From the NCBI GenBank assembly GCA_024427265.1, contig JAKSVP010000003.1, forward strand, positions 1-58,656: a DNA stretch of 58,656 nt, written 5' to 3'. The translations under genes and the position numbers were made by a program. Position 1 is the first letter of the stretch; every line of letters starts with the position of its first letter. Under the pieces are notes generated by a model. It was given only the letters and a program-made list of their open reading frames with translations, was not told where the DNA came from and searched no databases. The stretch is from Mycoplasmoidaceae bacterium. GTDB taxonomy: Bacteria; Bacillota_I; Bacilli_A; Mycoplasmatales; Mycoplasmoidaceae. This document shows positions 4,903-34,306 of the stretch, piece after piece.

Positions 4903-4925
4903 AAAAAGAGGTTAAACCTCTTTTT
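4903..4925. terminator. Terminator after secreted DUF6273-like protein
   Basis: AAAAAGAGG / CCTCTTTTT stem with TTAAA loop and T-run on the minus strand; its end coincides with the stop codon of the gene at 4924-5733. Confidence 0.8.
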
Positions 4926-5733
4926 AGATGTTAAAGATTGGGGCAACAGGGTGACTATCAGTGGGAATATCCATAGAAGTTAATAACCCGTTCCCACAAT
5001 CACATATCCCAATATGATAATCTCCACCATACGGTTGCCTTGTTCAATAAAAGTCTCCTTCATGATAAAAACCTTGAATACATCTTCTTGAAGATTTACC
5101 GTATGGGTCTTCATCTGCATAATATGCATAAGATCTAGCACTTTTACCAATCTCAGCATAATCTGGAGCAAACACTGTATCACCAATTATTTCTTCAGGT
5201 TTTCCTCATACTTTATATGGTTTATCAACCGCAGGAATATCACTACCCAAAATTAACTCAATTTTGCTTGCAAAGTCTCTTTGTAAAAACGTTCTTAATG
5301 ATGATGTTTTTCAATTAGGTTCTTGACCAAATTGTAAATAAAGCGGTTCTAATGCTTTGGAGTCAGTTAATAAATTTCTAAATTGTAATGTTAAAGCTGT
5401 CTTCTTTTCTGTTCCAGAAATTACATCTTTATTTTCATCAATAACCATAATAGGATAAGTTAAACCATCGATTGTCATTTCTTTTGTTAAACCAACAAAT
5501 GTGTTACCATTATCAACATAATCTTTTTGATATTTTTGTTTAAAAGTTTCAAAACCTTCATTGGCTCAATAAGCAACTGTTCCTCAATCATCAGTTGCAA
5601 AGCTTTTAGCTTCAGGCGGTGTTGGCATAAGTGGACTTGGGTTAGCTACAGAGGCAGTTACAATCGGTGCAACAACTACACCACCAACTCCAACAGTGGT
5701 TGATAAAACTATAGGTACTAGCAAATTTTTCAT
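4924..5733 (-). CDS. Secreted protein, DUF6273-like
   Basis: 269-residue exported protein of unknown function. It begins MKNLLVPIVLSTTVGVGG, an N-terminal signal/anchor with no lipobox Cys, then a Pro-rich linker (PSPLMPTPPEA). The body has NWKTSSLRTFLQRDFASKI and IIGDTVFAPDYAEIGK, which resemble the SxLRxWLN and GDKxFxLSxxE patterns of DUF6273 surface proteins of gut bacteria (recalled, not searched). The C-terminal third is Tyr/Gly-rich with a short CDCG motif. Five Trp are encoded by TGA. Monocistronic: own -10 region and terminator. Role presumed extracellular. Confidence 0.7.
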
Positions 5734-5769: not shown

Positions 5770-5792
5770 TATTATAAAAAACAGAAAAAGAA

Positions 5793-5814
5793 AAAGAGTG
5801 CTCGAGCACTCTTT
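5793..5814. terminator. Terminator of hydrogenase-ferredoxin operon
   Basis: Perfect palindrome AAAGAGTGCTC/GAGCACTCTTT followed on the minus strand by T-rich sequence, 18 nt after the ferredoxin stop. It ends the hydCBA-fdx transcript. Confidence 0.85.
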
Positions 5815-5831
5815 CTTGTATTTAAGAAAAA

Positions 5832-6011
5832 TTATTTGTTTTCAATTGCTTGTACTGGACAAACTCCTGCACAAGCTCCGCAACCAACACATTTAGAGTG
5901 GTCAACACCGGCTTTGCCATCAGAACCGATAGCTACAGCACCTACTGGGCAAACGCCTGTGCAAGCACCACAGCCTAAACATTTTTCTTTATTTACGACA
6001 GCTTTTGACAT
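5832..6011 (-). CDS. 2[4Fe-4S] clostridial-type ferredoxin
   Basis: 59-residue electron carrier with two CxxCxxCxxxCP motifs: CLGCGACTGVCPVGA and CVGCGACAGVCPVQA. This is the normal size and duplicated structure of a clostridial ferredoxin. A good ribosome site (AAGGAG) precedes the ATG. It is the last gene of the hydrogenase operon, starting 71 nt after hydA, and is the obvious partner supplying low-potential electrons to HydABC (inference from context). Confidence 0.95.
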   Translation of the reverse strand: MSKAVVNKEKCLGCGACTGVCPVGAVAIGSDGKAGVDHSKCVGCGACAGVCPVQAIENK

Positions 6012-6082
6012 AAGTTAATATATATCTCCTTAATACTTATTTATTATATATATTTTTGATATAAATATGTTAAATATTTACA

Positions 6083-7828
6083 TTAAATAAATTCACGTTT
6101 TTTATAGCTTCTATGAAGTAATTCATGAGCTTTGTGTGAGTTTGGTTTTTCCAAGAATTCTTTATAGATTTTAATGATGGATGGATTCTTGTGACTCTTA
6201 CGAATTTCTTTATTCGCATCGTTCTTGTAAAGAGCTTTAGCTCTTAACTTTATAACTGTGTCACGATCAATTTGGTCGTAGTCAACATATGGCATTCCAC
6301 CACCGTTAACACATCCACCTGGACAACACATAATTTCAATGAAGTGGTATTGTTTCTTTCCGGACTTAACATCTTCTAATACTTGTCTAGCATTTGCAAG
6401 TCCAGAAGCAGCACATACCTTAATCTCTTTACCTTTTAAGGTAATTGTTGCTTCCTTAATACCTTTAATACCACGAACCTTCTTGTATTCAATATCTTTT
6501 AGATCTTGTCCCGTAACAACGTCAGCAACAGTTCTTAATGCTGCTTCCATTACACCACCAGATGCACCAAAGATAACTCCAGCACCTGTTGATTCACCTA
6601 ATAGATCATCAAACTTACCATCATGTAGTTTAGGGAAGTTGATACCCATAGCTCTAATCATTCTTGCAAGAGATCTAACTGTTAAGACAGCATCGGTATC
6701 TCTCATGCCTTTTAAGGCATCACATCCATATTGAATTTCAGATTTCTTTGCAGTACAAGGCATAATGTGAACAGTAAAGATCTTCTTTGGATCAATGCCC
6801 ATCTTTTGTGCTCAGTATGTCTTTGTTAAAGCACCTTGCATTTGCATTGGTGATTTAGCAGTTGATAGGTTTGGAATAAATTCTGGATAGTAAGCAGTAC
6901 AGTAATTTATTCAACCTGGAGAACAGCTTGTAATCAATGGAAGTTTACCACCATTATTTAAACGGTCAAGGAATTCGTGTCCTTCTTCCATAATTGTTAA
7001 GTCTGCTGCAAAGTTTACGTCAAAGACGTATTTGAATCCTAGACGTCTTAAAGCAGTAATCATTTTACCTTCAACATCAGTTCCAATTGGTAAGCCAAAT
7101 TCTTCACCAAGTGCAGCTCTAACAGATGGAGCTGGTGAACATACTACGATATAGTTTGGATCAGCTAATTTTTCAAATACTTCAGTATAACTTGTTCTTT
7201 CAGTTAATGCTCCTGTTGGACAAACCAATGTACATTGGCCACAGCCTACACAAGCTGTTTTATCCATCTTTTCATCAAAGGCACAACCAATGTATGTTTT
7301 AAATCCTCTATCATTTGCATGAATTACACCAACATCTTGTTGTTTTTCACAAACAGCAATACATTTCTTACACAAAATACATTTGCTTGGGTCTCTAATA
7401 ATACATGGAGATGTAGTATCTGGTTCGTGTGTATGCTTTTCACCATCATATTTATGATCATTGATCATATATGTTTCTGCATATTCTTTTAATTTACAGA
7501 AATGAGATTTTAAACAGTCTGAACAATCTTTTCTATGATTAGACATTAATAATTCAAGGTTTTGTTTTCTAGCTTGAATTACTTTTCAAGTGTTTGTAAA
7601 TACTTCCATGCCTTCGGCAACTGGATAGACACAAGCTGCTACTAATCCTCTAGCACCTTTAACTTCAACTAAGCACATTCTACATGCACCAATTGGGTTA
7701 AGGTCTTTTAGATAACATAAAGTGGGAATGGTAATACCATTAGCTCTTGCAGCATCAAGAATAGTTGAACCTTCTTCAACTTTGACCTTAATACCATCAA
7801 TTATCAAATTAATTAATTTCTTTGCCAT
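6083..7828 (-). CDS. hydA: [FeFe] hydrogenase catalytic subunit HydA
   Basis: 581-residue catalytic subunit of a multimeric [FeFe] hydrogenase (2H+ + 2e- to H2). Domains in order: N-terminal [2Fe-2S] ferredoxin domain (Cys in TIPTLCYLKD, ACRMCLVEVKG and VAACVYP); His/Cys [4Fe-4S] motif HRKDCSDCLKSHFC; two [4Fe-4S] motifs CILCKKCIAVCE and CVGCGQCTLVCPTGA; then the H-cluster domain with L1 TSCSPGW, L2 MPCTAKKSE and L3 EIMCCPGGCVNGGG. L2 and L3 are canonical. L1 has Ser where TSCCPxW has its second Cys. TGA encodes Trp at several sites, including the W of L1. It lies 11 nt after hydB. Needs HydE, HydF and HydG, which are not in this window. Confidence 0.96.
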
Positions 7829-7839
7829 AGTCTACCTCC

Positions 7840-9714
7840 TTACTTCTTTGCTACTGCACCAAAACGACAGTTTCTAGCACAGGCTCCACATTTAATACAT
7901 TTAGTTTGGTCAATCACAAATGGTTTACCAATTGTTCCACTAATTGCTTTAACTGGACAGTTTCTAGCACAGCTAGAGCATCCTTTACATTTGTTGGCAT
8001 CAATGTAGTAACCAGTTAATGATTTACATACACCAGCAGGACATTGTCCTTTAGTGTGAGCAATGTATTCATCTCTAAAGTATCTTAGAGTTGAAAGGAT
8101 TGGGTTTGGAGAAGATTGTCCTAAACCACAAGCTGAAGTTGCTTTAATGTGAGCAGATAATTCTTCAAGTTTAGTAATGTCTGACTCTTTTGCTTTACCT
8201 TCAGTAAACTTGTTTAGTAATTCAAGTAATCTCTTGTTTCCAATTCTACATGGAACACATTTACCACAAGATTCTTCTACACAGAATTCCATGTAGAATT
8301 TACAGATGTCAACCATACAGTTATCTTCATCCATAACAATTAAACCACCAGATCCCATCATTGATCCAATAGCCATTAGGTTTTCATAATCAATTGGAGT
8401 ATCTAATAGTTTAGCTGGAATACATCCACCAGATGGACCACCTGTTTGTGCAGCTTTAAATTGTTTACCATTAGGTATACCACCACAAATATCAAATACT
8501 ATTTGTCTTAGTGTAGTACCCATCGGTACTTCAATAAGTCCAGTGTTTTTAATCTTACCACCAACTGCAAATACTTTAGTACCTTTAGATTTTTCTGTAC
8601 CAATCTTAGTAAATCATTCTGCACCATTCAAGATAATTCTTGTAATGTTTGCATATGTTTCAACGTTATTTAATAATGTTGGTTTTCCAAATAAACCTTT
8701 AACTGCAGGGAATGGAGGTCTTGGTCTTGGTTCACCTCTATTACCTTCAACTGAAGTCATTAAAGCAGTTTCTTCACCACAAACAAAAGCTCCAGAACCT
8801 AATCTTAAAGATAGTTTGAAACTAAAGTTTGTGCCAAGAATGTTTTTGCCGAGCAAACCATATTTCTTAGCTTGAGCAATTGCTTTTTCTAATCTTTGAA
8901 CTGCAATTGGGTATTCTGCTCTTACATAAATGAAACCTTCATCAGCTCCAATTGCATAAGCGGCAATAGTCATTGCTTCAATTACTGAGTGTGGATCTGC
9001 TTCAAGGATAGATCTATCCATGAATGCACCTGGGTCTCCTTCATCAGCATTACAACAAACATATTTCTTTTTGTTTACTGATTTCTTAGTTAATGATCAT
9101 TTTAGTCCAGTAGAGAATCCACCACCACCACGACCACGTAATTGAGAATCTGTAATTACCTTAATTACATCATCTTGACTCATTGATGTTAAAACTTTGT
9201 TTAGAGCAAAGTATCCATCACAAGCAATATATTCTTCAATGTTTTCAGGATCAATGATACCTGCATTCTTTAAAGCAATCTTAACTTGATTCTTATAGAA
9301 GTGTGTTTTATTTAATGGAATAATATTCTTATTTTCATCCAATTGGTTTGGTCAAACAAGTTCTTTAACAACCTTGCCTTCCATTAGATGTTCTTCAATT
9401 ATTCTTACAACATCTGTTGGTTTTACCTTACGGTAAAAGATACCTTCTGGATAAACAAGAACAACTGGTCCTTGTGAACACAGACCGTGACATCCTGTTG
9501 GACTTACTTCTACTTTATCTTGTAGATTGTGAGCTTTAATACTTTTTTCAAAAGCATCAATAACTTCTTTTGCTTTATTACTTAAGCAACCCGTTGAAGC
9601 ACAAACAAGAATTTGTTGCTTACCAGATTGTTCAGCTTTAGATAATCCTAACTTACGATCATTAATTCTTTTAGCTAATTTATCTTTGATAGCTTGTAAT
9701 TCTTTAATTGTCAT
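7840..9714 (-). CDS. hydB: NADH-binding hydrogenase subunit HydB (NuoF-like)
   Basis: 624-residue FMN/NAD-binding subunit of a HydABC-type hydrogenase. The N-terminal thioredoxin-like [2Fe-2S] domain has CASTGC and TGCHGLC. The NuoF core follows: [11 protein letters not shown] (FMN/NADH loop), [19 protein letters not shown] and [12 protein letters not shown] plus TSACGLGQ ([4Fe-4S]). The C-terminus carries two extra [4Fe-4S] motifs, [12 protein letters not shown] and [11 protein letters not shown]. This fusion of NuoE-like, NuoF and ferredoxin domains is the HydB architecture of electron-bifurcating hydrogenases. Four TGA-Trp codons split it in standard-code translation. It starts 2 nt after hydC. 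Confidence 0.95.
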
Positions 9715-9716
9715 AA

Positions 9717-10196
9717 TTAAGCATCACCTCCTACTTTCTTATCATGTTTAAGAATCAAGTCAATTGTTTCTTGAACTTGATCAGGAAGAATAGTGTAAAC
9801 CTTATCATTAATCATAGTAACTGGTGCTAAACCACAGCAGCCTACACATCTAGCGGTTGCTAGAGTAAACATGCCATCCTCTGTTGTTTCGCCAAGCTTA
9901 ATACCAAGGATTTGCTCAAATTTTTCTAAAACTTTAGCAGATCCTTTAACATAACAAGCTGTTCCTAAGCAAACAGTAATTACATATTTACCTTTTTTAG
10001 TAAATGTAAATTGTGTATAGAATGTGGCAATGGAATAAATTTCACTAGTTGTTGTGTCAAACTCATCAGCTATTAATCTCATTGCTTCACGAGATAAATA
10101 ACCAAAGTTTGCTTGTGCTTCTTGTAAGCACATCAACTTAGTACCATTTTTGCTATGAATTTGTTTAATTTTCGTAGCAAATTCTTCAATAGTCAT
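9717..10196 (-). CDS. hydC: Hydrogenase [2Fe-2S] subunit HydC (NuoE-like)
   Basis: 159-residue thioredoxin-fold [2Fe-2S] protein. The cluster ligands are in VCLGTACYVKGS and ATARCVGCCGLAP, and the N-terminal helical part (EFATKIKQIHSKNGTKLM...) has the usual NuoE form and length. First gene of the hydC-hydB-hydA-fdx operon, the order seen for trimeric bifurcating hydrogenases. The ribosome site GGAG lies 8 nt before the ATG, and a 13-bp perfect inverted repeat sits just upstream between promoter and start. Confidence 0.95.
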   Translation of the reverse strand: MTIEEFATKIKQIHSKNGTKLMCLQEAQANFGYLSREAMRLIADEFDTTTSEIYSIATFYTQFTFTKKGKYVITVCLGTACYVKGSAKVLEKFEQILGIKLGETTEDGMFTLATARCVGCCGLAPVTMINDKVYTILPDQVQETIDLILKHDKKVGGDA

Positions 10197-10209
10197 GAAT
10201 TTCTCCTAT

Positions 10210-10241
10210 TAATTATTAAAATATTGTAATTTTAATAATTA
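10210..10241 (-). promoter_or_regulatory. Inverted repeat at hydrogenase operon promoter
   Basis: Perfect 13-bp inverted repeat TAATTATTAAAAT / ATTTTAATAATTA with a 6-nt loop, overlapping a minus-strand TATAAT (10238-10243) and ending just before the hydC ribosome site. It could be a repressor operator or a 5' mRNA stem-loop. It does not match the Rex consensus TTGTGAA-N4-TTCACAA. Confidence 0.55.
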
Positions 10242-10288
10242 TATTAAATAACATATAAAAAATATACTATTTGTATATAATGTTATCA

Positions 10289-10864
10289 ATGTTTAAATTA
10301 CAAGATCTTAAACCTTCTTCTGATTGAATATTAGAAGATAGCAACGAGTTTTTATCAAGACAATGTAAAGAGGTCGCTTTTCCATTAAATGATAAAGATT
10401 TGTTATTAGTTAACCGTATGGTTAGCTATATTGATGCTTGTTATGAAAACAGAGATAGTCAATATGACATTCGTGGTGGTATTGCTGTTGCTGCACCTCA
10501 AGTTGGATGCGATAAGAAAATTATCTATATCCATTTTGATGATGAACACAATAAGGAGCACAGATACTTACTAGCTAATCCAGAAATTGTTGCTACAAGC
10601 GTTGCTTGTTGCTACATTAAATCTGGAGAAGGATGTCTATCAGTATTCAAAGATCATAAAGGTCATGTTAAAAGATTTAACAAAATCAGAGTTAAAGCTT
10701 TAGATATGTTAAATGATAACAAACCTATAACAATCAATGCTGAAGGATTATTGTCTATTTGTTTACAACATGAGATTGATCATCTATCAGGAATTTTGTA
10801 TTATCAAAGAATTGATAAGAAACATAAATTCTTGGATGATGACAAGTCTCTCATAGCTTATTAG
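10289..10864 (+). CDS. def: Peptide deformylase
   Basis: Removes the formyl group from nascent proteins. 191 residues. The three family motifs are GGIAVAAPQVG (GxGxAAPQ), EGCLS (metal Cys) and QHEIDHLSG (HExxH). One TGA-Trp lies near the N-terminus (SSDWILED). A TATAAT at 10276-10281 places the transcription start at about the ATG at 10289, so the mRNA is probably leaderless; an in-frame ATG at 10280 overlaps the -10 box and is less likely. It is followed 8 nt later by the RNase J gene, with which it forms an operon. Confidence 0.93.
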
Positions 10865-12567: not shown

Positions 12568-12579
12568 TGCCTATTTTTT
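12554..12579. terminator. Terminator of def-rnj operon
   Basis: Stem AAAAAATAGGC / GCCTATTTTTT with TAAT loop. It overlaps the last codons of rnj and contains the stop codon of the convergent toxin gene. Confidence 0.8.
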
Positions 12580-12849
12580 AAATAAGTCACTATGGGATCC
12601 GCTTCGATACAAATACAATATTAGTTCATCTTTATAAATTTTATATATGAGAAGTCAGTCATTTTCAACATGACATTCTCTATATCCAGAATATTTCCCA
12701 GACAATGAATGATCTTTGTATTTTGTCTCTAGGGGTTTCTCTTGCGCTAGTGTGTTTACAACATATTCAAAGGTTTGAAAATTGCAATGTCTTTTCTTTG
12801 CTAATTTCAAATCTTTTTTTATTTGTGTTGATAATTTAATCTTTAACAA
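12571..12849 (-). CDS. YafQ/RelE-family toxin
   Basis: 92-residue ribosome-dependent mRNA interferase of the YafQ branch of RelE/ParE toxins. The C-terminus shows the diagnostic pattern HSLSGKYSGYRECHV then DWLLIYKIYKDEL and RSGSHSDLF; the Trp is TGA. His and Asp positions expected for YafQ catalysis appear present. It starts with TTG directly after the stop codon of the antitoxin, so the two are translationally coupled. It would act in the cytoplasm on ribosome-bound mRNA when its partner is degraded. Confidence 0.88.
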
Positions 12850-13125
12850 TTAAATCACTCCTATGTCTTCTAGTGCTTCGTGTATATTGCTATAAGTTTT
12901 TGTAGTCTTTTTACCAGACATAACCTTTTTACCTTCGTTGAAAGATTTAATTGTCTTTTTATTTGGTTGCAATTTTACTTCAAATGGTAATCCTTGTTCT
13001 TGAATAGCTTGTTTTAAAAATAAAGATACAGCAGTTGAAAAATCTAAACCAAGTTGTGTAAACAACTTAGCTGATTCTTTTTTTAAATATGGATCTAGTG
13101 TAATATTTGTTCTTTCTTTAAGCAT
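12850..13125 (-). CDS. RelB/DinJ-family antitoxin
   Basis: 91-residue antitoxin. The N-terminal ribbon-helix-helix reads LKERTNITLDPYLKKES, then AKLFTQLGLDFSTAVSLFL and KQAIQEQGLPFEV, the DinJ pattern. The C-terminal half is basic and ends in a helix that should wrap the toxin. The ATG at 13123-13125 is preceded by GAGGT at good spacing, so the longer in-frame extension upstream was not used. It probably represses its own promoter, as DinJ does (family knowledge). Confidence 0.88.
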   Translation of the reverse strand: MLKERTNITLDPYLKKESAKLFTQLGLDFSTAVSLFLKQAIQEQGLPFEVKLQPNKKTIKSFNEGKKVMSGKKTTKTYSNIHEALEDIGVI

Positions 13126-13175
13126 AATATACCTCAAATATATTATACACACTTTATACACACTTTATACAAATA

Positions 13176-14701: not shown

Positions 14702-16116
14702 TAGTCATCCATATCTTGTTGATTACGAACTTTATTTATCCTAACCATTTTTGGTGGGTGTTTCTTTGTTATTCAGTGAGATGCGGTGAATAATCCTCAC
14801 ATTGCTACTATTGTTGCAATTACAGCAATGGTTACAATTCAGTTTCTTCAAACAAATTCATCTCATTCAAGTTCACCACCAAATACTGATTGTTTCATGA
14901 ATGTATTGAAGAATTGACTTGAACATATTCCTATTGATAACCCAAGATTGTATAGAGTAATTGGTGTAATTTTGTTTGTTTTTGCAAAGAACTTATTCAT
15001 CACCAACCCAACAATTAGGTTGTATGTCATACCAAAAGCAAAACCATTTAAAATGTTTGTCGCCAATCTTGAATATACATTCAGAATTGATGCAGACAAT
15101 ATTACATAAACAATTCATAAACCTGAAGCTAAAGAAAAGATTGCTCATTTATTCATTCTCTTAACTAAGAATAAACCTGTTATGATGTTAGCAGCCATTT
15201 GTCCAATTGTAAAAATTACAGATAAATATCCTTCATAAGCATTTGTAACAACACCTTGATGTTTACCAATATATTTAAATTCAGTAATTGCTGTTCCACC
15301 AGATGTACAGAACTTAATGAATGATGTAATTGCAGCTGCTAAAATCAATAATAGAACGACTGATCCATCTCATTTATTTTCAATTGGTTCTTTATACTTG
15401 TTGTCTTGGTATAAATATGCTCTTTTTTCCTTAACAAAAATAGTGCATATTGCTGTAATAACAATACATACCAATCCTACAACTCACATATATTTAACAA
15501 TATTTATGTAGTCTTCGCCTTTAGCTTCAGCTGGAACAAAACTTGTCACACAGCATTGTAAAACTGAAGAAAAGAATTCAGCTAATAATGGTGGCAATGA
15601 TAATAATGTTACGGTTAAGAAAACCTTTCTTTTTGCATATTGTTCATTAAACATTAAATTGAACACTGCAATACCACTAGCACCAATACCAACAGTTATT
15701 GATTGAATAATGTTAGTTGCTAAGCATGGAACAATGATCATTGGAATAGTTCCAGCAGCTTGAATGAATAATGAAATGTAAATAACATTCTTTCTTGATT
15801 TAAGTCTATGACTTAGTAAGTCATTAAGAGGTTTCCAAAATATTCCAATGATCCCATATACAGTTACTGGTAATCACATTAATGAAGATGTAGCTCATCC
15901 TGCATCCACCATTGCCGTATGCATCTGACTCGTATACTCTCTTAATAGCATAGGAGCAATTCAATATAAGGTATAGATGATAAATAGTAAACGATAGTTC
16001 TTATCATCAAACTTAATTTTGAAGATTAGAAAAATGGATACTCCTAGGGAAACTAGCAGTACACTGAAATTAACAATCAATGCAATAATTTGATTATTAT
16101 CTAACCCATTTATCAT
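14701..16116 (-). CDS. Multi-pass permease, MFS-like (copy 2)
   Basis: 471-residue polytopic membrane protein paralogous to the gene just downstream, with ~12 membrane segments and a central cytoplasmic loop (FVKEKRAYLYQDNKYKEP). Shared blocks: REYTSQMH, SRKNVIYISL and GIGASGIAVFNLMFNEQ. Its promoter region (minus-strand TATAAT at 16127-16132) lies next to a 26-bp palindrome that also covers the fumarase promoter, so the permease and fumarase are probably co-regulated. Substrate not evident. Confidence 0.75.
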
Positions 16117-16145
16117 AGTATTTACAATTATAAAGCATTTCTATA

Positions 16146-16171
16146 ATACTTTAACACGAGTGTTAAAGTAT
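16146..16171. promoter_or_regulatory. Operator-like palindrome between permease and fumarase
   Basis: Perfect palindrome ATACTTTAACAC-GA-GTGTTAAAGTAT. Its right end overlaps the fumC -10 box (TATAAT 16169-16174), and it lies upstream of the divergent permease promoter: ideal placement for a repressor controlling both. It is not a terminator (no transcript should end here) and does not match Rex or CIRCE spacing. Confidence 0.7.
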
Positions 16172-16183
16172 AATATAAGAGTT

Positions 16184-17554
16184 ATGAAAATGAAAATAAT
16201 GAAGGATACTCTAGGCACCATAGAAGTTCCTGCAAATGTATTTTGAGGTGCACAAACTCAAAGAAGTAAACAAAACTTTACTATCTCTGATGAAAAAATG
16301 CCAAAGCAATTAATCAAGTGTATTACATATATAAAGAAAGCTTGTGCTATTGCTAATGCAAAAGTTGGCAAATTAGACAACAATAAGAAAAATGCAATCG
16401 TTAAAGTTTGTGATGAAATCTTAGCAGGTAAACTTGCTGACAACTTCCCATTGTCTATTTGACAAACAGGAAGCGGTACACAAACAAACATGAATGTTAA
16501 TGAAGTGGTTGCTTACCGTGCTAACTATGAAGCTAAGAAGGAAAAATTCATTCACCCTAATGATCATGTTAACATGTCACAATCAAGTAATGATGTTTTC
16601 CCAACTGCTATGCATTTAGTTATTGCTACATTAACTAAAGAAAAACTATTACCTAATCTTGAAAAATTAATTAAAGAACTAAAAGTTCTAGTTAAGCAAA
16701 CTTGAAATATTATCAAAGTTGGTCGTACACACTTACAAGATGCTACACCAGTAAGATTAGGTCAAGAAATTTCTGCTTGAGTTGCAATGTTAGAAAACTC
16801 AAGAGATATGATTCTTGATGCTAATAAATACATCAACCAATTATGTATTGGCGGTACAGCTGTAGGTACAGGATTAAATACTCCAAAGAACTTTGATAAG
16901 ATGGTTTGTGCTGAATTATCTAAGATGATTGGTATTAAATTCACTGCTTTACCAAACAAATTCCAAGGTTTAAGTTCTAAGGATAGCGTAAGTCACTACC
17001 ATGCTGCACTTAAGACTTTAGCTGAAAGTTTGATCAAGATTGCAAATGATGTTAGATTCTTAGCATCTGGACCAAACTGTGGTATTGGTGAAATTATTAT
17101 TCCATCTAATGAACCTGGAAGTTCAATCATGCCAGGTAAGGTTAATCCAACTCAATGTGAAGCAATGATGATGCTTTGCATCAGAGTAATTGGAAATGAT
17201 ACTTGTGTTACATTAGGTAATGCAATGGGTAACTACCAACTTAACACATTCATGCCAATGATGATCTACTCAATCAACCAATCAATTAACTTATTGGCTG
17301 ATGGTATGGATTCATTTACAAGAAAATGTGTAATTGGTATTAAACCAAACTTAAAGAAGATTGAATACAACCTATACCGTGACTTAATGTTAGTAACAGC
17401 ATTAAATGTTAAGATTGGTTATGAAAAAGCTGCTGATATTTCTAAATTAGCACAAAAAGAATCAATCACATTAAAAGAAGCTGCTAGAAAACTTGGCTAC
17501 TTAACAGATGCTGAATTTGATAAGATAGTTGTTCCAAGTAAGATGGTTGGATAA
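16184..17554 (+). CDS. fumC: Fumarate hydratase class II
   Basis: 456-residue class II fumarase (fumarate + H2O to malate). Motifs: [52 protein letters not shown] and the family signature [15 protein letters not shown]; it ends KMVG as in E. coli FumC. The WQTGSGT and SSNDVFPT blocks match fumarase rather than aspartase. Three Trp come from TGA. The ATG lies ~10 nt after the -10 box, so the leader is only a few nt. A second class II lyase is encoded at 23.5-24.9 kb with different active-site neighbours. Confidence 0.92.
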
Positions 17555-20415: not shown

Positions 20416-21801
20416 TTAGCTCTTTTTTGGAGATTTTTTTGTTTTCTTAGCAGAAACTTTTTTAGCTCTCTTGTTAAATTGTCTAATATCGTTTCTATTA
20501 GCAACAATAGCTTCAGAAGAAGCAATTCTTTGTTCAGCAGTAACAGGTCCTGTTTCTGCCTTAGAAGCTGCACGTAAGTTTTCGTTAGCTAATCTTTCAG
20601 CTCTCTTAGCTCTTTCTTTTCTTGCAACTTCGTCTTTTCAACATCTTGCAACTTCAGCAGCAACTGCTTCAGCAACGTTTTTGTCTAATGCTGAAGGCAT
20701 AATGTTATCTGGAGTTGGATTTTTAACCATTGAAGCAATTGCTCTAGCAGCAGCGTGTTTCATTTCTTCAGTAATTTGTTTAGCTCTTACTGATAATGCA
20801 CCTTTGAAGATACCAGGGAATGCTTGTAGGTTGTTAATTTGGTTAGGGAAGTCTGAACGTCCTGTACCAACAATGTATGCACCAGCTTGCTTTGCAATAT
20901 CTGGCATAATTTCTGGAGTTGGGTTAGCCATTGCAAAGACAATTGGTTTATCATTCATTAGTTTAATTCAGTCTGGTTTTAATGCACCTGGAACTGAAAC
21001 ACCAACGAAGATATCTGCACCTTTAAGAGCATCAGCTAAAGCACCTTTAACTGCTTTCTTGTTTCCACCCTTAATTGCAGCAGCTACTTGATATTGGTTG
21101 AATTGTCTATCTGATGGATCAACAATTCCAGCACGGTCAACATATATAATGTTGCCCATACCCATATCGTGTAGTAAGTTACCAATAGCCATACCAGCAG
21201 AACCAGCACCATTAATAACTGTTGTACAATCTTCTCATTTCTTACCAACTACACGTAATGCATTTGTTACAGCAGCAGCTACAACAATTGCAGTACCATG
21301 TTGGTCATCATGGAATACTGGAATATCACAGATGTCTTTTAGTCTTCTTTCAACTTCTACACATCTTGGTGCACCAATATCTTCTAGGTTGATACCACCA
21401 AATGAACCAGAAATAAGATAGATTGTTCTTACTAATTCATCTACGTTCTTACTTCTAATACAGATTGGTACTGCATCAACACCACCAAATGTTTTAAATA
21501 GAGCACATTTACCTTCCATAACTGGCATACCAGCTTCTGGACCAATGTCTCCTAATCCTAATACTGCTGTACCATCAGTAATAACAGCAATAGTGTTATT
21601 TCTTGCTGTTAAGTCTCAAGACTTTTGATAATCCTTATGGATTTCAATACATGGTTGAGCAACACCTGGAGTATACATTAAAGACAAATCATTTTTATCT
21701 TTAATTGCATACTTAACATTAGTTGAAATTTTTCCTTTTAACTTATAGTGTAAGTCTAATGACGCCTTAGCAATTGGGGTCATAGTAGTTTTAATTGCCA
21801 T
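20416..21801 (-). CDS. mae: Malic enzyme (NAD(P)-dependent) with charged C-terminal tail
   Basis: 461-residue oxidative decarboxylase (malate + NAD(P)+ to pyruvate + CO2 + NAD(P)H). Motifs: [44 protein letters not shown] (metal/catalytic block), NGAGSAG (dinucleotide fold) and [13 protein letters not shown]. The core matches short bacterial malic enzymes; ~65 extra C-terminal residues are Lys/Arg/Ala-rich, ending [15 protein letters not shown]. Last gene of an operon with the permease (16 nt gap) and the aspartase/fumarase-like lyase. NAD versus NADP preference cannot be read safely. Confidence 0.93.
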
Positions 21802-21817
21802 AAATAATCCTTTCTAA

Positions 21818-23437
21818 TTATTTAGCACCTTTAATGCTTACTGATCTTTTAGCTTTTTGTCAAAGCAATGGTTGTGCATAGTTCTTATCAGTTAACTTAA
21901 TTAATAAGTCATTTAAGAATGGATAACCAATAAAGAAGATTGCAGCAGATCAGAAGACACATGCAGCTTGTCAGTTGTTTAATTCAAAGCCAGATTTAAC
22001 CATTGCAAATCCAAATGAGTTTGCATTTGTTAATTCTGGGCCCATAGCTACTTGTGTACTAAATTGATAGAACACACAGTAACCGAAAGCAAAGAAGCAA
22101 CCAATGACTGCAATTATTCCAAATGGAATAAAGTAACCTACTTTATGTACTTGGTTCTTATTTGTAATACGGTTAATTAATCCACCAAGGACTGTCATAC
22201 CGTAAATACCAAAGTAGAACAATACTGCTAATGTACTAAATCCATCATAGATGTGGCTAGTATCTAGAATACAAGATGGTATAGCCACAGCAAAGAAGAT
22301 TAAGCAGATGAATATTGAATAGATTGCAAATCCACCTAAGTTATCATGACCATTTCCAAGCTTGCTAGCTCATTTGTGGCCAAAGACAACTTTGTCATCA
22401 ACTAAAGCTTGAGTTGCTCTAGTTCCTGCCATTGAATATGAGTTAATTACACCTAGTGTAGCAATTGTGATTGATACTGATAGAATGCAAACACAAAGAA
22501 TGTATGCTCAATCACATTTAGCATAATCAACAAGTGCCATGTGTAATAATTCATATGGGTTTCCTGTACCCATAGTAATGCAACCAATAGTAATTAATAA
22601 TTGGAAGATGGCTGCAATTATCATAGATACAATAATTGATAGTGGAACGTTCTTTTCTGGATTTTCTACATTCTTTTGAACGTTACCAATAATTAAGAAT
22701 GAATCGAATGCAAATAGAATTGCAGGAATAGATCTAAATACTCCACCTATTTCAAAGCCACCATTTGATGCTGTCTCTGAAGCAAATGTAATATTAGATA
22801 CATCTTTTGTTCATAGTCCACCACCTGTTAATATTCCAACAATGATACCAATTAAGATAATCATTAAGATTGGAACAAACTTAACAAATGTTGCACCTTT
22901 AGATACAATACCACCAAACTTGTTTGAGAAGAAGTTTGCTAGCATGAAGATGGCAATTAAAGCAATTGCCATAGACATAACTATAAGTGTTGTATATCTA
23001 TCATCCGTTCCTAATAAACTTGCATGGAACTTATTTTGTCCAAGTGCAGCATAATAGATTTGGAAAATAGATACCGCAGCAAATGTTGACATTGCAACGA
23101 ACTTTGCTGGGTAGTAGAATGTGGATTGCGTTAAGCTTACATGTCTACCGAAATTGTAACCAACCATCTTTTCAGATCAGCCAGCTAAACCAGCATTAGG
23201 GTTTCTTAAACCCTTTACTGTAACAATTTCAGCAAAACTAAATGCTGTGAATAAAGCAATAACAATTGCTAGAATTCAGCTGATTAAGACACCAATAGCA
23301 TCGTTGTTGTTATTTGCAAAAACGGAACCGTTCTTAAAAAATACACCAACACCAACTACGGTGGCAATAATTAAGCTTATTGAACCAACTAGACCAATTT
23401 TACCTGCAGTTTTTTGTGAAACTGAAGTTTTTGCCAT
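21818..23437 (-). CDS. APC-family amino-acid permease
   Basis: 539-residue integral membrane transporter with ~12-14 membrane segments. The N-terminus has the APC signature GLVGSISLIIATVVGVGVFF, the Gly-rich unwound helix 1 that binds substrate; further on are PAILFAFDSFLIIGN and NPEKNVPLSI, both typical of APC carriers. Sandwiched between the lyase (17 nt) and malic enzyme (16 nt) genes, so it probably brings in the amino acid fed to that pathway, for example aspartate (inference). Several TGA-Trp codons. Confidence 0.85.
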
Positions 23438-23454: not shown

Positions 23455-24888
23455 TTAGTTGTGGCACATCTTAGCAGGAACAACGTATTTGTCGTAATCC
23501 TTTTCAGAGATGTAACCTAATTTGTGAGCAGCTTCCTTTAATGTTAAACCATTACGTTGAGCATATAAAGCAATTTCTGCTGATTTGTGGTAACCAATAA
23601 CATCCTTTAAAGCTGTTACTAACATTAATGAGTTATCAACGTAGTATTTCATCTTTTTAGGGTTAACTGTAATACCAGCACAACAATTCTTGTTGAATGA
23701 GTCGATGTAGTTTGCAAATCTGTTTACAGAGTCTGCAAAGTTAGCAAATTGAATTGTACCAAATGTGTTCAATTCAAAGTTAGCACCACCACCTAGTCAT
23801 GCAACAACAATGTCACGACCTACAACGTCAACGCACATCATAGACATACCTTCACATTGTGTAGGGTTTACTTTACCAGGCATAATTGATGATCCTGGTT
23901 CGTTTTGAGGAATGTTAATTTCTCCAAAACCTGATCTTGGACCAGAAGCTAAGAATCTTACGTCCATAGAAATCTTGTATAAGTTCATAGCTAATGCTTT
24001 GATTGCACCATGAACGAAGATTAATGCATCTTTAGATCATGTTGAATAGAATAAGTTTGGAACTACTTTAAATTGTTTAGCTACACTAAAGTGTTTGTTG
24101 TTCTTTAATACTTTGTTTAAAGCATCACAACAGTATTTAGCATAACCTTTCTTTAATGGACAAGTAGATCCTGTACCAACAGCAGTTGCACCCATTGTAC
24201 ATACATATAATGAGTCAAGTGCTTTAACGATCATATCTCTACCATTTTCACAAGCAAATCTTCATCCAGATACTTCTTGACCAAATGTAATAGGTACAGC
24301 ATCTTGAATGTGAGTTCTACCTAATTTAACTAGATTAGCATGTTCCTTTTCTAGTTTCTTGTAAGTAGCAATTAATCTATCAAGAGCTGGTAGTAATTTG
24401 TTTTCTACCATGTAGATAGCACATAGGTTTGCTGAAGTTGGGTAAGCATCGTTAGTAGATTGAGACATGTTAGCATGATCGTTTTCATGAACATATCCTG
24501 GTTTACCAGCAATCTTACTTGCTCTACGAGCGATAACTTCGTTAACGTTCATATTTGTTTGAGTACCAGCACCTGCTTGGTAAGAGTTAGTTGGGAAGTG
24601 TTTGTCTAACTTTCCAGCCATAATTTCTTCACAAGCTTGTCTGATTAATCTTGCACGGTTGTGGTCTAATTTACCACATTTTTCGTTTGCTGTAGCAGCA
24701 GCGTGCTTTACAGCACCAAAAGCATGAATTAAATCTAAGCTAACGATTTGGTCAGCAATTTGGAAGTTCTTCATACTTCTTTGAGTTTGAGCACCTCAGT
24801 AAGCTCAGTTAGGAACTAACATTTCGCCTAATGAGTCATGTTCAACTCTATAGCCAGCTTTCACTGACGTTTTGTTTGTTTTTTTCAT
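23455..24888 (-). CDS. Aspartase/fumarase-family lyase
   Basis: 477-residue class II lyase of the fumarase/aspartase superfamily, about 21 residues longer than the fumC in this window. Motifs: [51 protein letters not shown] and [15 protein letters not shown]. The YQAGAGT and STNDAYPT blocks match aspartate ammonia-lyase, while the C-terminal half ([21 protein letters not shown]) is fumarase-like. With a separate FumC present and an amino-acid permease downstream, aspartase (aspartate to fumarate + NH3) is my preferred call; a second fumarase is the alternative. First gene of the operon. Confidence 0.8.
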
Positions 24889-28322: not shown

Positions 28323-31031
28323 TTAAGAGTAAATTACTAAATCTTGGTATGTGTCTTTTGGCAAATCAAATGTTATAGATGGCAATTTTTGACTAGTTAA
28401 ATTACAGAATTCAATCAACAAATCTCTTGTAATATCAACTTTATGATGGATGTTATACAATTTTGGGTGTTCTGCAGCATTATATTCAAAGTATTGCTTA
28501 AACATTGTTGCTTGAGCATTACCACCTTCAAATAAGAAACTATTAATAACACATGGAATATATGCATTTTGTTTTATCCATTCAGATGCAGGAATTCAAC
28601 ACGATGCATCATCTGGGTCGTATAAACCGCTTGGGTCAAATTCGTCTGGTGCTTTATAGATTCAAATTTTTGGAATGGCTGTATATTTATTAGCCAACTC
28701 TGTGTCAGCTGGTGCTTCATATTTTAATTTATATGTTCGACCAATAGCAATATCAGAGGCATCAGATGTCTCATCACATTTTTCTACTTCAAATTTAAAT
28801 CCATATCATTGAAGCGGTCCGCAAAGATAATTGCATTTTCTCATTTCATCATCTTTATACTCAACTGTTTCATATTGATCAATACATTCAATTGGTTCTA
28901 AAGGAGTACCTTTAAGGCATGCATCATCCATATCAATTTTTTCAAGGTCGTTTCTTGGGCAAGTACTTATATTAAAATATTCGTTGTTCATATCATAATG
29001 GAAAACATCGTCTCTTTCAAGACCAGCTAATAAATAATTGATAATATTAGCTAATTGTCATACTGATAAGTATCCAAGAGTAATCGAATTTTCATATCCT
29101 TGAATTGTAAATAAGTCTTTCAATGTGACTTCTTTTCTTGCAGCACCAGTTGGTCCGGGAATTTCACCGCCTAATGAGTCGAAATTAATAAATGAAATTG
29201 ATGGGAACTTTAAATTTGATTCTATTCCTTCAATCTCTTCTTGATATTTACTACTAAACCCAATTAACTGTGCTAAGTTAATTCATGCTCCTAAATCGTC
29301 TTCATATGTATCAACGGTTTGTCCACTTTTTATAATATGTGGTCTAAAATATTTGTGGCCTATTGATGCATTGGGGTCGTGATATACTTGATAATGACAT
29401 CCGTACTTTGTTTCAGCAATTTTGTGATCTAATACGTCAGCTACTTCATTTCTTTGTGTGTCGTATGCATCAATAACCTCTACAGTGGTAGCATTTCTAG
29501 GGTTGGCTCTAATTTTTAATAATTGTTCTTTTGCTTTTTGTTCATCCCCTGTTTCTGAACCCTCAATTGTAATGGTTTTTGTTTCCATACTAATTGATTT
29601 TAATCTTTGACCTGCAGGCTTAGAATTATCAAATGTTAGTGTTGTATCAACATATTGTTGTCCTGAGTTTTTACCTTGACCTATTCATAAATCTTTACCA
29701 AAGTGATTTTTTACTGTGCCCATTACATCTTTGTGCGAGTGACCAGCAATAATACCATCTACCCAATTAACATCGATCTCTTTTGCTAGGTCAGCTGCTG
29801 GACCTGTTATTTCATGTCTTGTACCATCTTTGTCAATTTTTTGATCGCATTCAAGGTGTGTTAATAATAAGAAGCAGTCAATTTTATTAAATCAATCTGG
29901 TCCTAATTCCTTTTGACAAAGATATGCAGAATAAGATACTGCTGAGTTGTAATCAATGAAAGAGTAATGATTAACAACATCTTTGTTTCCATCTGTTATT
30001 GTCGCCTGTGTTGTTAAACCGAATAAACATATTAAGTGTCCGTCCATATTTACTAACTTGTATGGATCAGCCCATTTAACACGTGTGTTGTTTCAAATAT
30101 TAAAATAATAATCAAATTGAGGATCATTAGGATCTGTTACTCAAGGTATATCAGAATAGAATGGAACAGATAGGATATTACTTGCAACATAATATTTTCC
30201 GTTTGTTTTATCTGTTCTTCCTCAACCGTCATATACTTCACCAGCTAATTGATCATTTCCTCAGTCAAACTCATGGTTTCCAACTGCAGAATATTGAACA
30301 CCTAAACTCTTTTCAACCGGGAATAGGGATTTACCATGCATTGCTGTTGAGAATGCATCTCCAGTTGCATTATCTCCAGCAGATAAAACAATAGATCCAG
30401 GATAATCTCTAAGTGTTTCACCCATTTGGTCAGCTATTCTAATTAACCCAGGGTTGTGTCGAGACACACCAGAAATAACATCATCACCATAGCCTGGTGC
30501 AGCACCATGTAAATCGTTAATATCTAAAATGTGAAGGACTTCTTCACCTTCTGGTCTATCTTCATATTTAGAAAAAACTTTTAAGTTCTTCAAAATACGG
30601 ATTTCTTTCTTGCCACTCTTTCCAGTATATTCAAGGAATATATTGAAATCAGCGCTCATGTCAATACCATAGAAGTTTCTATATCCAACGCTAAAAGTAA
30701 AGAAATTATGATCAACTTCGTATTCAGCACTACTAACACCAATACCTAGGTTGTCTCATGGTTCAACCAATCTAACATCAATGCTGGTTGGTAATTTACT
30801 AATAGTAACTAATACCTTACCATCTTTTGGTTGTTCACCAAGTAAAACACCAAAAGTCGCAGCACCTAATTCAGTATTCATCCTAGCTTCAGTTGTAGTA
30901 AGATGAATATCTTCTGGAATATCAGGTGTTGGTCCTTCTGGATCATTACAAGCTACTAAACCAGCAACCATTACGATTGGTGTTGGTAAAGCTAGTGCTC
31001 CAGCAAGTAGTCATTTTGAAACTTTTTTCAT
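28323..31031 (-). CDS. 5'-nucleotidase-family surface lipoprotein 1
   Basis: 902-residue lipoprotein (signal MKKVSKWLLAGALALPTPIV, lipobox LVAC). After an extra ~180-residue N-terminal region comes a calcineurin-like metallophosphoesterase of the UshA/5'-nucleotidase family: DINDLHGAAPGYG, LSAGDNATGDAF, VGNHEFDWG, LLLTHLECD and IAGHSHKD give the full set of metal-site motifs. The C-terminal half corresponds to the substrate-specificity domain but is long and divergent. It would release nucleosides from extracellular nucleotides for uptake (family knowledge). A tiny ORF and hairpin precede it. Paralogous to the gene at 31769-33988. Confidence 0.87.
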
Positions 31032-31768: not shown

Positions 31769-33988
31769 TTAAATGTTTATCTGAATTAGATTTTTCATGA
31801 AATCATAATTTATACCATCATCAATATTTCGTTTTTGTCCTGTTAGATACTTGCAATAATTTAATGCGTAGTTTCTTGTAATTTGACTCAATGCATGTTC
31901 TTGTGCTGCTGGTGCAGGAACATTTTCACCATTATATTTAAATCAATGGTGTAACATTCTATTTTGACCATTTCCGCCTTGTCATGTAAAGTTAGGCATA
32001 ATTACTGGAATTAAGCCATTAAATGATTTTCAATTAGAAGCCTCAATCCAAGTTTTTGGGTCATCAAGACTACAAGCATTATTGCTTGGATCATATATTT
32101 TTAATGATCCTGATTTATATTGATAAGGTTGAAATTCAACACCTGAATCTTTTCTTACAGATCCTTTTTTCTCTACTTCAAAACTCATACCATAGAATTG
32201 TTGGCAGCCTGATACATATGATGTGCCATTAACAATTTCTTTTGCACCCTCAGCATTAAGTATTCATGCTTTTTCATTAGCATCATATATCATAGATTCG
32301 CCAGTAGATTTACCATCCATAGTTATTTCTACTTCATCAGCTTCATAACCATATGCTTTTTTCTCACCACTATAATCAAAACGTGCAGCACCTTCTAGGA
32401 AGTAATTAATGTATTGTTCTAGTTGTGCAGGTGTTAAACATCCATAATATGTACTATTTTCAAAAGAATGCATTTGGAAAATTTCTTTTGTTAATAGATC
32501 GCGTTCTGTTTCCTTGTCCCCTAACAAAAATCCTGTTTTTAATGAATCAAGATTTATAAGTGAAACGCAAGCAGGGTATAATTCACCAGCTTTAATATTA
32601 TCTTTATATTCTTCATTAAAACCTCATATTTGAGCTTTGTTAGCTCAAGCCCCAGCTGGTTCTATTAAAGTATCACTTTGCATGTATTGTGTACCAAAAG
32701 ATCTTTCAGGATGTTCAGTAAAGTAATAGTGCACATCATCTTTTAATACTCCAAGTGGTTTGTCTAGTTCACGAAGAGCAACTTCTTTTTGTTTTGTATA
32801 TTCTTCAATCGTTTTCTTAACAACTTTATTCTTTGTATTGTCTATAATGTCGTTTAATTGTTTTCTTGCACAAGCTTTAGCTTTTTCTAATTCTTCTGGT
32901 TTAGTTGGATCGTTCTTTCCATAATCAATAAATGGTGTTTTAACATTCATTGAAATAGATTCCAATCTTTGACCTACAGGTTTACCGTCATTAAATACTA
33001 ATTTTGTATCAACATATCTTCTACCAGCTTGTGATGCTTGAGCAACAGGAATCATGTTTCCAAACTTTTCATTTTTAATTAATCCTGAACATTCTCTGTG
33101 GCTGTGAGCAGCTAAGATACCATCAATTCTAGTTGTTGCGTTCTTAGCTAAATCTGCTGCTTCACCTTCAATAATTGTTGGATCAACACTATTTGGTTGA
33201 CATTCACAGTGAGTTAATAAAATGAAAGCCTCAATTGAATTAAACTTTTCTTCTCCTAATTCAGATTTAGCTAATGTCTTAGTATAAGTAACAGATGCAT
33301 TATAGTCAATAAATGCTAAGTCCTTAATTGCATTAAGGTTTCCATCAACAAGTGTTCCTTTTGTTGTTAAACCAATAATACAAACGTTGTGTCCATTCAT
33401 ATCCAAAATTTTGTATGGATCTGCTCATGAAATTAAATTATCATGTCACTTTGTATAGTCTTCTTGATATTTTGGGTCTTGTTCATTAACACATCATGTA
33501 TCATCTCGATATTCACTACCAGTTAAAACATTTGAAGTAACAAAATAATTACCATTAGTTTGATCAGTTCTTGCAACTTCATCTCAGTGGTGATCTTCTA
33601 AATGTTCTGAACCTCATTCTCATGCATGATTACCAACTGCTGAATATGTAATATTCATTGCATGAAGTACTGGATATAGTGTTTCAGCATGTGTTACAGT
33701 TGAAAACGCTTCACCTGCATTATAGTCTCCACATGATAACATGTATGAACCAGGATATTTATTTATTATTTCTTGTGCTTCGTTTGCTAAACGAACAGCA
33801 CCAGCATTTTGATAATTAATAACAAATTCTTCTTCACCAAAACCTGGTGCAGCACCATGGAAATCATTGATTGAAACGATATGTGTTTCTACCTTTCCAT
33901 CATTACCACATCCTGTTAACATCGATGTTGGTAATAGACACATAGACATTGATGCTGATACAACTAATCCTTTAACTGCTTTTTTCAT
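31769..33988 (-). CDS. 5'-nucleotidase-family surface lipoprotein 2
   Basis: 739-residue lipoprotein (signal MKKAVKGLVVSASMSMCLLP, lipobox LTGC) paralogous to nucleotidase 1. Metal-site motifs follow the signal directly: SINDFHGAAPGFG, LSCGDYNAGEAF, VGNHAWEW, LLTHCECQ and LAAHSHRE. Compared with copy 1, GNHE is GNHA and GHSH is AHSH, but the metal-binding Asp/Asn/His residues remain, so activity is plausible. It lacks the ~180-residue N-terminal insert of copy 1. The C-terminal region is rich in Trp from TGA. A leader ORF and hairpin precede it. Confidence 0.87.
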
Positions 33989-34155: not shown

Positions 34156-34229
34156 TGGCAGGGATTGAATGAATCGAACACTCATCAAAAGTTTTGGAGA
34201 CTTCTGTTCTACCATTGAACTAAATCCCT
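34156..34229 (-). tRNA. tRNA-Trp (CCA anticodon)
   Basis: 74 nt including encoded CCA. Acceptor AGGGATT pairs with AATCCCT, D-arm TAGTTCAATGGTAGAAC, anticodon stem-loop GAAGT-CTCCAAA-ACTTT with anticodon CCA, T-arm GAGTG-TTCGATT-CATTC. It reads TGG; a separate UCA tRNA for the frequent TGA codons must be elsewhere. Confidence 0.9.
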
Positions 34230-34230
34230 A

Positions 34231-34306
34231 TGGTTACCCGTACGGGATTTAAACCCGTGATCTTCACATTGAGAGTGTGACGTGTTAATCGCTCCACTAA
34301 CGGGCA
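34231..34306 (-). tRNA. tRNA with CTC anticodon (Glu), atypical loops
   Basis: 76 nt including CCA. Acceptor TGCCCGT / ACGGGTA, anticodon stem TCACA / TGTGA with loop CTCTCAA (anticodon CTC, codon GAG, Glu), T-stem ACGGG / CCCGT. Oddities: the first pair is U-A, the D-loop AGCGATTA lacks the conserved GG, and the T-loop is TTTAAAT instead of TTCRANT. The cloverleaf is otherwise sound. Confidence 0.75.

Follow-up and report, generated by a model that had tools for sequence, protein, structure and literature searches.

Can a mollicute run an [FeFe]-hydrogenase without the maturases HydE, HydF and HydG (HydEFG), whose pathway is held to be necessary for the CO, CN and dithiolate ligands of the H-cluster and hence for [FeFe]-hydrogenase activity? 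The question is raised by a hydC-hydB-hydA-ferredoxin operon in a 58,656-nucleotide stretch of DNA from a Mycoplasmoidaceae bacterium (contig JAKSVP010000003.1), the whole of which was analysed and is called the window below. On balance we lean towards the reading that HydABC is a bifurcating-type hydrogenase that was gained from gut Clostridia, has been kept, would run in the confurcating direction and would receive the [2Fe] half of its H-cluster without HydEFG. The operon consists of the following genes:

9717-10196, minus strand: hydC, 159 amino acids, NuoE/HoxE-like [2Fe-2S] subunit, an open reading frame under code 4
7840-9714, minus strand: hydB, 624 amino acids, FMN/NAD(H) diaphorase subunit with N-terminal [2Fe-2S] and C-terminal 2[4Fe-4S] domains
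6083-7828, minus strand: hydA, 581 amino acids, [FeFe]-hydrogenase catalytic subunit with the motifs TSCSPGW, MPCTAKKSE and EIMCCPGGC
5832-6011, minus strand: 2[4Fe-4S] ferredoxin, 59 amino acids, 71 bases downstream of hydA

Subunit identity and bifurcation type

Genes were called under NCBI code 4 (UGA=Trp). The four genes run head to tail on the minus strand from 10196 to 5832 with intergenic gaps of 2, 11 and 71 bases, and each is preceded by a Shine-Dalgarno-like stretch, the ferredoxin having its own. They are far beyond chance and their coordinates are correct; the complete operon claimed by an earlier reading of the sequence (the original prediction) is borne out by the open reading frames and by profile matches. 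HydA scored 851.7 bits against NCBIfam NF040763 (cut-off 765), matched Fe_hyd_lg_C, Fe_hyd_SSU, Fer2_4 and NADH-G_4Fe-4S_3 above the Pfam cut-offs, and carries the H-cluster domain, motifs L1-L3 and the N-terminal Fe-S clusters. HydB contains Complex1_51K, NADH_4Fe-4S, 2Fe-2S_thioredx and Fer4 domains, that is, a NuoF core with extra N- and C-terminal Fe-S domains. HydC is a 2Fe-2S_thioredx protein (PF01257, 153 bits) and supplies the operon with a NuoE-like subunit, and profile search found two Fer4 stretches in the ferredoxin. The best matches in the PDB for HydA and HydB were the Acetobacterium woodii subunits HydA1 (7q4v_A, 664.9 bits) and HydB (7q4v_B, 879.7 bits).

The NCBIfam name of NF040763, "NADH-dependent, group A6", together with the score against it, would suit a non-bifurcating NADH-dependent hydrogenase. 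In the relevant passage of Losey et al. (PMC7311640), bifurcating HydB is distinguished by Ala/Glu and Met, by Phe and by a GGPSG stretch, and non-bifurcating HydB by Thr/Ser, Lys/Ser/Ala and Tyr without GGPSG. The HydB stretches GAFMD, GLFGKPT and GGPSG match all three bifurcating patterns, with residues read from the alignment to A. woodii HydB and placed by motif, the published numbering being that of T. maritima HydB; the non-bifurcating residue set does not fit this HydB. With Ala/Met, Phe and GGPSG in place and the A. woodii enzyme as best HydB match, we regard a non-bifurcating enzyme as very unlikely. The families, the HydB residue patterns and the genetic code thus support the original assignment of a bifurcating-type HydABC to a UGA=Trp mollicute.

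Origin of the operon and its host

The closest named HydA was that of Candidatus (Ca.) Hennigella equi, a horse-gut mollicute (92% identity), and the ferredoxin has a 98% identical partner at the same Ca. Hennigella locus (L001). Ca. Hennigella is assigned to Mycoplasmatales, Mycoplasmoidaceae in the portion of an equine faecal microbiome study that describes it (PMC8957277). The gene order HPr, PHP-domain protein, ferredoxin, hydA, hydB, hydC, deformylase, RNase J is common to the window and the Ca. Hennigella equi metagenome-assembled genome (MAG). A DUF6273 protein (4924-5733, minus strand; 27 bits, cut-off 23.5) is an extra gene of the window, which Ca. Hennigella equi lacks at this locus. 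The original prediction noted TGA at Trp positions in hydA and hydB, and every one of the six Trp codons in these genes is TGA; their Ca. Hennigella partners are five TGA and one TTA. We place the host close to Ca. Hennigella, as a code-4 mollicute living in the gut.

The operon has a guanine-plus-cytosine content of 34%, against about 30% beside it, which might suggest an assembly chimera or contamination, although the window also reaches 35% elsewhere. The same gene order in an independent MAG, the TGA codons at Trp positions and the place of HydA inside a mollicute clade make this possibility practically negligible, and the synteny with L001 and the TGA use refute a chimera. The ratio of nonsynonymous to synonymous substitution rates (dN/dS) between the window and Ca. 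Hennigella equi was 0.093 for hydA, 0.109 for hydB and 0.100 for hydC, so that HydABC is kept under purifying selection. With dN/dS near 0.1, 92% HydA identity and the same gene order, the operon is neither a chimera nor decaying, and the claim that it is native stands.

The comparison with clostridial hydrogenases that the original prediction proposed was made as a quick tree of 102 HydA rows, in which 22 of the 24 mollicute rows (six of the 24, P0002 and P0004-P0008, labelled by likeness) formed a single clade (SH-aLRT 100) branching from within the gut Clostridia; the other two, G049 and G052, fell outside it and grouped with CpI. The closest Clostridia matches were about 60% identical to mollicute HydA. 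HydA was probably gained from gut Clostridia, to judge by the tree, and a single transfer into mollicutes would explain the 22 clustered rows.

Search for maturases and pyruvate:ferredoxin oxidoreductase

The original prediction proposed searching for hydE, hydF, hydG and pyruvate:ferredoxin oxidoreductase (PFOR), and held that absence of HydEFG together with disabling substitutions in hydA would refute it. Maturases were searched in the genomes of relatives, namely 95 genomes of the mollicute family of Ca. Hennigella (family sample) and 320 genomes of the order (order sample), and from these we infer that HydEFG are absent from the window's own genome beyond the stretch itself. HydG had no match in the 95 family genomes and was over cut-off in none of the 320 order genomes, with one weak match (G231, 138 bits). 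HydF was over cut-off in 0 of 95, all matches among those listed ending by profile position 195 of 392, approximately the GTPase domain, and HydE likewise reached its cut-off in 0 of 95, the weak matches in nine genomes scoring no more than 27.8 bits. The HydEFG half of the refuting combination therefore holds in the relatives.

Could the maturases be present outside the window, missed in the relatives' assemblies or too divergent to be detected? The search covered the relatives, their completeness is not stated, and the rest of the window's genome lay outside it, which leaves such an explanation some room. PFOR, however, was over cut-off in 31 of 95 family genomes; among these were 17 of the 20 that match group A HydA strongly (see below) and 3 of 3 with a group B match only. 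The assemblies are thus sufficiently complete for genes of this kind to be seen in them. The C-terminal domain of HydF (PF18133) was found in 0 of 23 mollicutes and in 3 of 3 controls (two Clostridia and a Haloplasma MAG). The 20 group A genomes contained 4 to 7 Radical_SAM matches each, and in three of them (G062, G001 and G044, six proteins each) these were examined singly: the six of G062 were over cut-off as HemW, MiaB, MtaB, PflA, RlmN and NrdG, three of G001 as RlmN, NrdG and PflA, and the remaining nine of the 18 were assigned by eye from the cysteine motif and its flanks. None of the 18 resembled HydE or HydG; all look like housekeeping types. Each of these results counts against hidden HydEFG, which we consider decidedly unlikely.

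The active site of HydA

Several points weigh against a working enzyme matured without HydEFG. Absence of HydEFG normally means no active [FeFe]-hydrogenase, and H2 production is here predicted from genes alone. Three of the four cubane ligands of the H-cluster are Cys in HydA, and the fourth, at CpI C300 (which we take to be a cubane ligand), is Ser. CpI Gln325, a variable site, is Met in the window's HydA and in seven kindred rows. Lastly, the conservation of the pocket did not differ significantly from that of the rest of the domain (Fisher p = 0.064) and is suggestive only.

Ser also stands at this position in 75 of 76 non-mollicute rows and in the HydA1 chain of A. woodii, and since that chain shares it, Ser at CpI 300 is not taken as decisive evidence of a disabled enzyme. 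The A. woodii enzyme is listed among the known bifurcating hydrogenases in the part of PMC7311640 that bears on it.

Apart from these two sites, the Fe-S and [2Fe]-pocket residues that were checked in HydA are kept. The N-terminal Fe-S ligand list, the roles of CpI residues and the [2Fe]-pocket list used here are our working assumptions. By these lists, the N-terminal Fe-S ligand positions are kept 16 of 16 in 21 mollicute rows. Of the 17 pocket and proton-path positions, 15 were constant (at least 98%) in the 76 non-mollicute rows, and all 15 were invariant in the 21 mollicute rows; other constant H-domain columns were kept in 55 of 69 cases. The pocket test left out G049, G052, five HydA forms of about 450 amino acids (G035 and G057-G060) and P0028 (identical to G040). 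The rows left out carry Ala (five rows) or Val (one row) at Met353 and Ile (five rows) at Gln325; Ser323 is replaced by Thr in G052 and Gly507 by Ser in G059. A disabled HydA was rejected on the kept pocket residues, and the second half of the refuting combination, disabling hydA substitutions, was accordingly not found.

Alternatively, HydABC lacking the [2Fe] subsite could serve as a ferredoxin:NAD oxidoreductase that exchanges electrons between NAD and the ferredoxin reduced by PFOR, with HydA as a structural and electron-entry part and no H2 made. The absence of HydE, HydF and HydG over cut-off from the relatives would fit this, as would the retention of HydB and HydC at dN/dS near 0.1. 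Against it stand the invariance of the testable pocket columns, even if not significantly above the rest, and the hydrogenases of the relatives described next, and we judge it unlikely.

Other hydrogenases in the mollicute family

Group A matches to NF040763 with E < 1e-100 occurred in 20 of the 95 family genomes (12 over cut-off), and a second, group B-like match (E 3e-40 to 6e-29) in 11, eight of them among the group A 20, giving 23 genomes with an [FeFe]-hydrogenase-like gene. Four of the 11 group B-like matches were scored whole against the group B1 model TIGR04105 (cut-off 450), and all four passed (518, 501, 519 and 473 bits). One lies in Ca. Hennigella itself, where contig C31 of G001 (locus L205) carries in order the end of pyruvate formate-lyase, PflA, a group B1 hydrogenase protein and PFOR; this protein, 778 amino acids long, continues for about 300 residues beyond its N-terminal [FeFe]-hydrogenase, and neither hydB nor hydC was found in the stretch. 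Group B1 hydrogenases in the same family argue against a mere oxidoreductase. So do three genomes (G061, G062 and G067; loci L091-L093) with full-length HydA in the mollicute clade, Cys at CpI 300 and PFOR close by: neither hydB nor hydC was found in the examined stretch around these genes, which is hard to explain if HydA were part of a diaphorase.

Neighbouring genes were also considered as alternative maturases, and none is common to all 11 hydCBA loci. In five of the 11 (L146, L148, L150, L152 and L153) a gene upstream of hydC, in divergent orientation, encodes a protein of the metallo-beta-lactamase fold; no such gene was found at hydC in the window or in Ca. Hennigella. A PflA gene adjoins the group B hydrogenase in G001 (234 bits, cut-off 231.75) and in G019 (211.9 bits, under cut-off); because it follows the C-terminus of pyruvate formate-lyase in G001, it is most simply the activase of that enzyme and was set aside as a candidate.

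Maturases outside the mollicutes

As controls, 61 non-mollicute genomes, mostly gut Clostridia, were drawn from 76 loci with similar HydA and searched for HydG and HydF. HydG was over cut-off in 35 of 61 (5 of 12 plus 30 of 49), and HydF in all of the five HydG-positive control genomes searched for it. In the 26 genomes without HydG over cut-off, HydF was over cut-off in 10 and not in 16. For one of the 26, G145, the absence of HydG is unsure, because a 77-bit match to the start of HydG lies in an open frame too long to be real, which may reflect masked sequence. Five related Lachnospiraceae MAGs (G114 and G117-G120; loci L021 and L024-L027) have HydF over cut-off and not HydG, a pattern resembling that of the clostridial acetogens of PMC9431212. 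Neither was over cut-off in two Holdemania genomes (G106 and G151) and in Bittarella G104, all three from named strains and with TSCSPGW in HydA. HydG and HydF are therefore found where they exist, yet some hydrogenase-bearing genomes outside the mollicutes also lack a detectable full set; the absence of HydG is mollicute-specific only in part, and the maturase gap may reach beyond this group.

Proposed function

If HydABC works as we favour, PFOR, found in the relatives, would reduce ferredoxin, NADH would deliver its electrons to the FMN of HydB and this reduced ferredoxin its own to the Fe-S clusters, and HydA would reduce protons to H2, with NADH and reduced ferredoxin most likely spent together in the confurcating direction. 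The [2Fe] half of the H-cluster would come not through HydE, HydF and HydG but from a maturation route so far unrecognised or from other cells. The direction of flow, H2 production, PFOR in the window's own genome and unconventional maturation are what we infer from the genes of the window and its relatives.

An unconventional [2Fe] source is rated likelier than an unused active site on two grounds: the pocket residues are conserved, and group B1 enzymes, as well as HydA proteins with neither hydB nor hydC in the examined stretch, occur alongside in genomes lacking the maturases. That a family of UGA=Trp mollicutes runs working [FeFe]-hydrogenases of two groups, trimeric HydABC and monomeric group B, without HydEFG, the [2Fe] being made by a bacterial pathway yet to be discovered or acquired from neighbouring bacteria or from protists with hydrogenosomes, is a broader proposal that we make tentatively, as falling somewhat short of probable. 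Intact-looking group A and group B enzymes without HydEFG offer a clean case for a second route, for sharing of [2Fe] or for another job of these proteins, and, as the 20 group A relatives have listed genome sizes of about 0.5 to 1.2 Mb (megabases), the list of candidate genes is short.

The original statement that H2 is a main electron sink is not supported as it stands, because H-cluster maturation is needed and each maturase was over cut-off in 0 of 95 relatives; H2 as an electron sink is a plausible hypothesis. H2 feeds methanogenesis in gut ecosystems, and it would be a possible added end product for gut mollicutes. The window also holds two fumarase/aspartase-family genes (16019-17554, plus strand; 23455-24888, minus strand), a malic enzyme (20416-21801, minus strand) and an amino-acid permease (21818-23437, minus strand). 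Fumarate, malate or aspartate could through these yield NAD(P)H and pyruvate, possibly feeding PFOR and the hydrogenase.

Further features of the window

Two candidate signals flank the operon:

10261-10289, minus strand: promoter-like site TTGATA-17-TATATT upstream of hydC, 10/12 matches, pattern only
5791-5816, minus strand: terminator-like hairpin with T run after the ferredoxin, pattern only

The promoter-like site is one of the two best in the region, and sites of its class were not commoner than in shuffles (23 vs 20.5); terminator-like hairpins numbered 3 against 2.1 expected from shuffles. Elsewhere, the window carries a YafQ-type toxin (PF15738, 111 bits) paired with a RelB antitoxin (PF04221, 38.8 bits) at 12571-13161 (minus strand), two large 5'-nucleotidase-like proteins with matches under cut-off (28323-31031 and 31769-33988, minus strand) and, just beyond 33988, tRNA-Trp and tRNA-Glu (34156-34306).

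Comparison with known systems

Literature searches, judged by titles and abstract openings, found no published mollicute hydrogenase, and none describing the missing mollicute maturases. The gene is already annotated, since source names of Hennigella, Mycoplasmoidaceae and Mycoplasmataceae proteins read [FeFe] hydrogenase. Among mollicutes, Ca. Mycoplasma girerdii, a Trichomonas symbiont, is likewise anaerobic with PFOR and ferredoxins, but differs in that its authors, in the section on these genes, could not identify hydrogenase genes (PMC5476646); for its relative Ca. M. trichamica PFOR is reported, and the word hydrogenase occurs 0 times in the main text (PMC10557491).

Excerpts of two papers on anaerobic eukaryotes offer a further parallel. 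Maturases are reported in some, not all, eukaryotes with [FeFe]-hydrogenase (PMC3785491); all Archamoebae studied have a probable cytosolic group B homologue, and the organelle of Entamoeba histolytica lacks HydA and maturases (PMC10711303). Those systems without reported maturases are eukaryotic, whereas the mollicute one is a trimeric bacterial HydABC. In the table of PMC9431212 that covers them, HydG is not detected in five Clostridium acetogen species, and rows of it show HydE and HydF; their maturase set is incomplete like that of the mollicutes, in which none of the three was over cut-off.

Non-mollicute genomes with similar HydA, mostly gut Clostridia, differ from the mollicute family in HydG over cut-off, 35 of 61 against 0 of 95. 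The A. woodii HydABC (7q4v) shares with the mollicute enzyme the TSCSPGW motif and the same 16 N-terminal Fe-S ligand positions of HydA, and the mollicute enzyme differs from it in its UGA=Trp host, in the Met at CpI Gln325 and in relatives in which no HydEFG was found.

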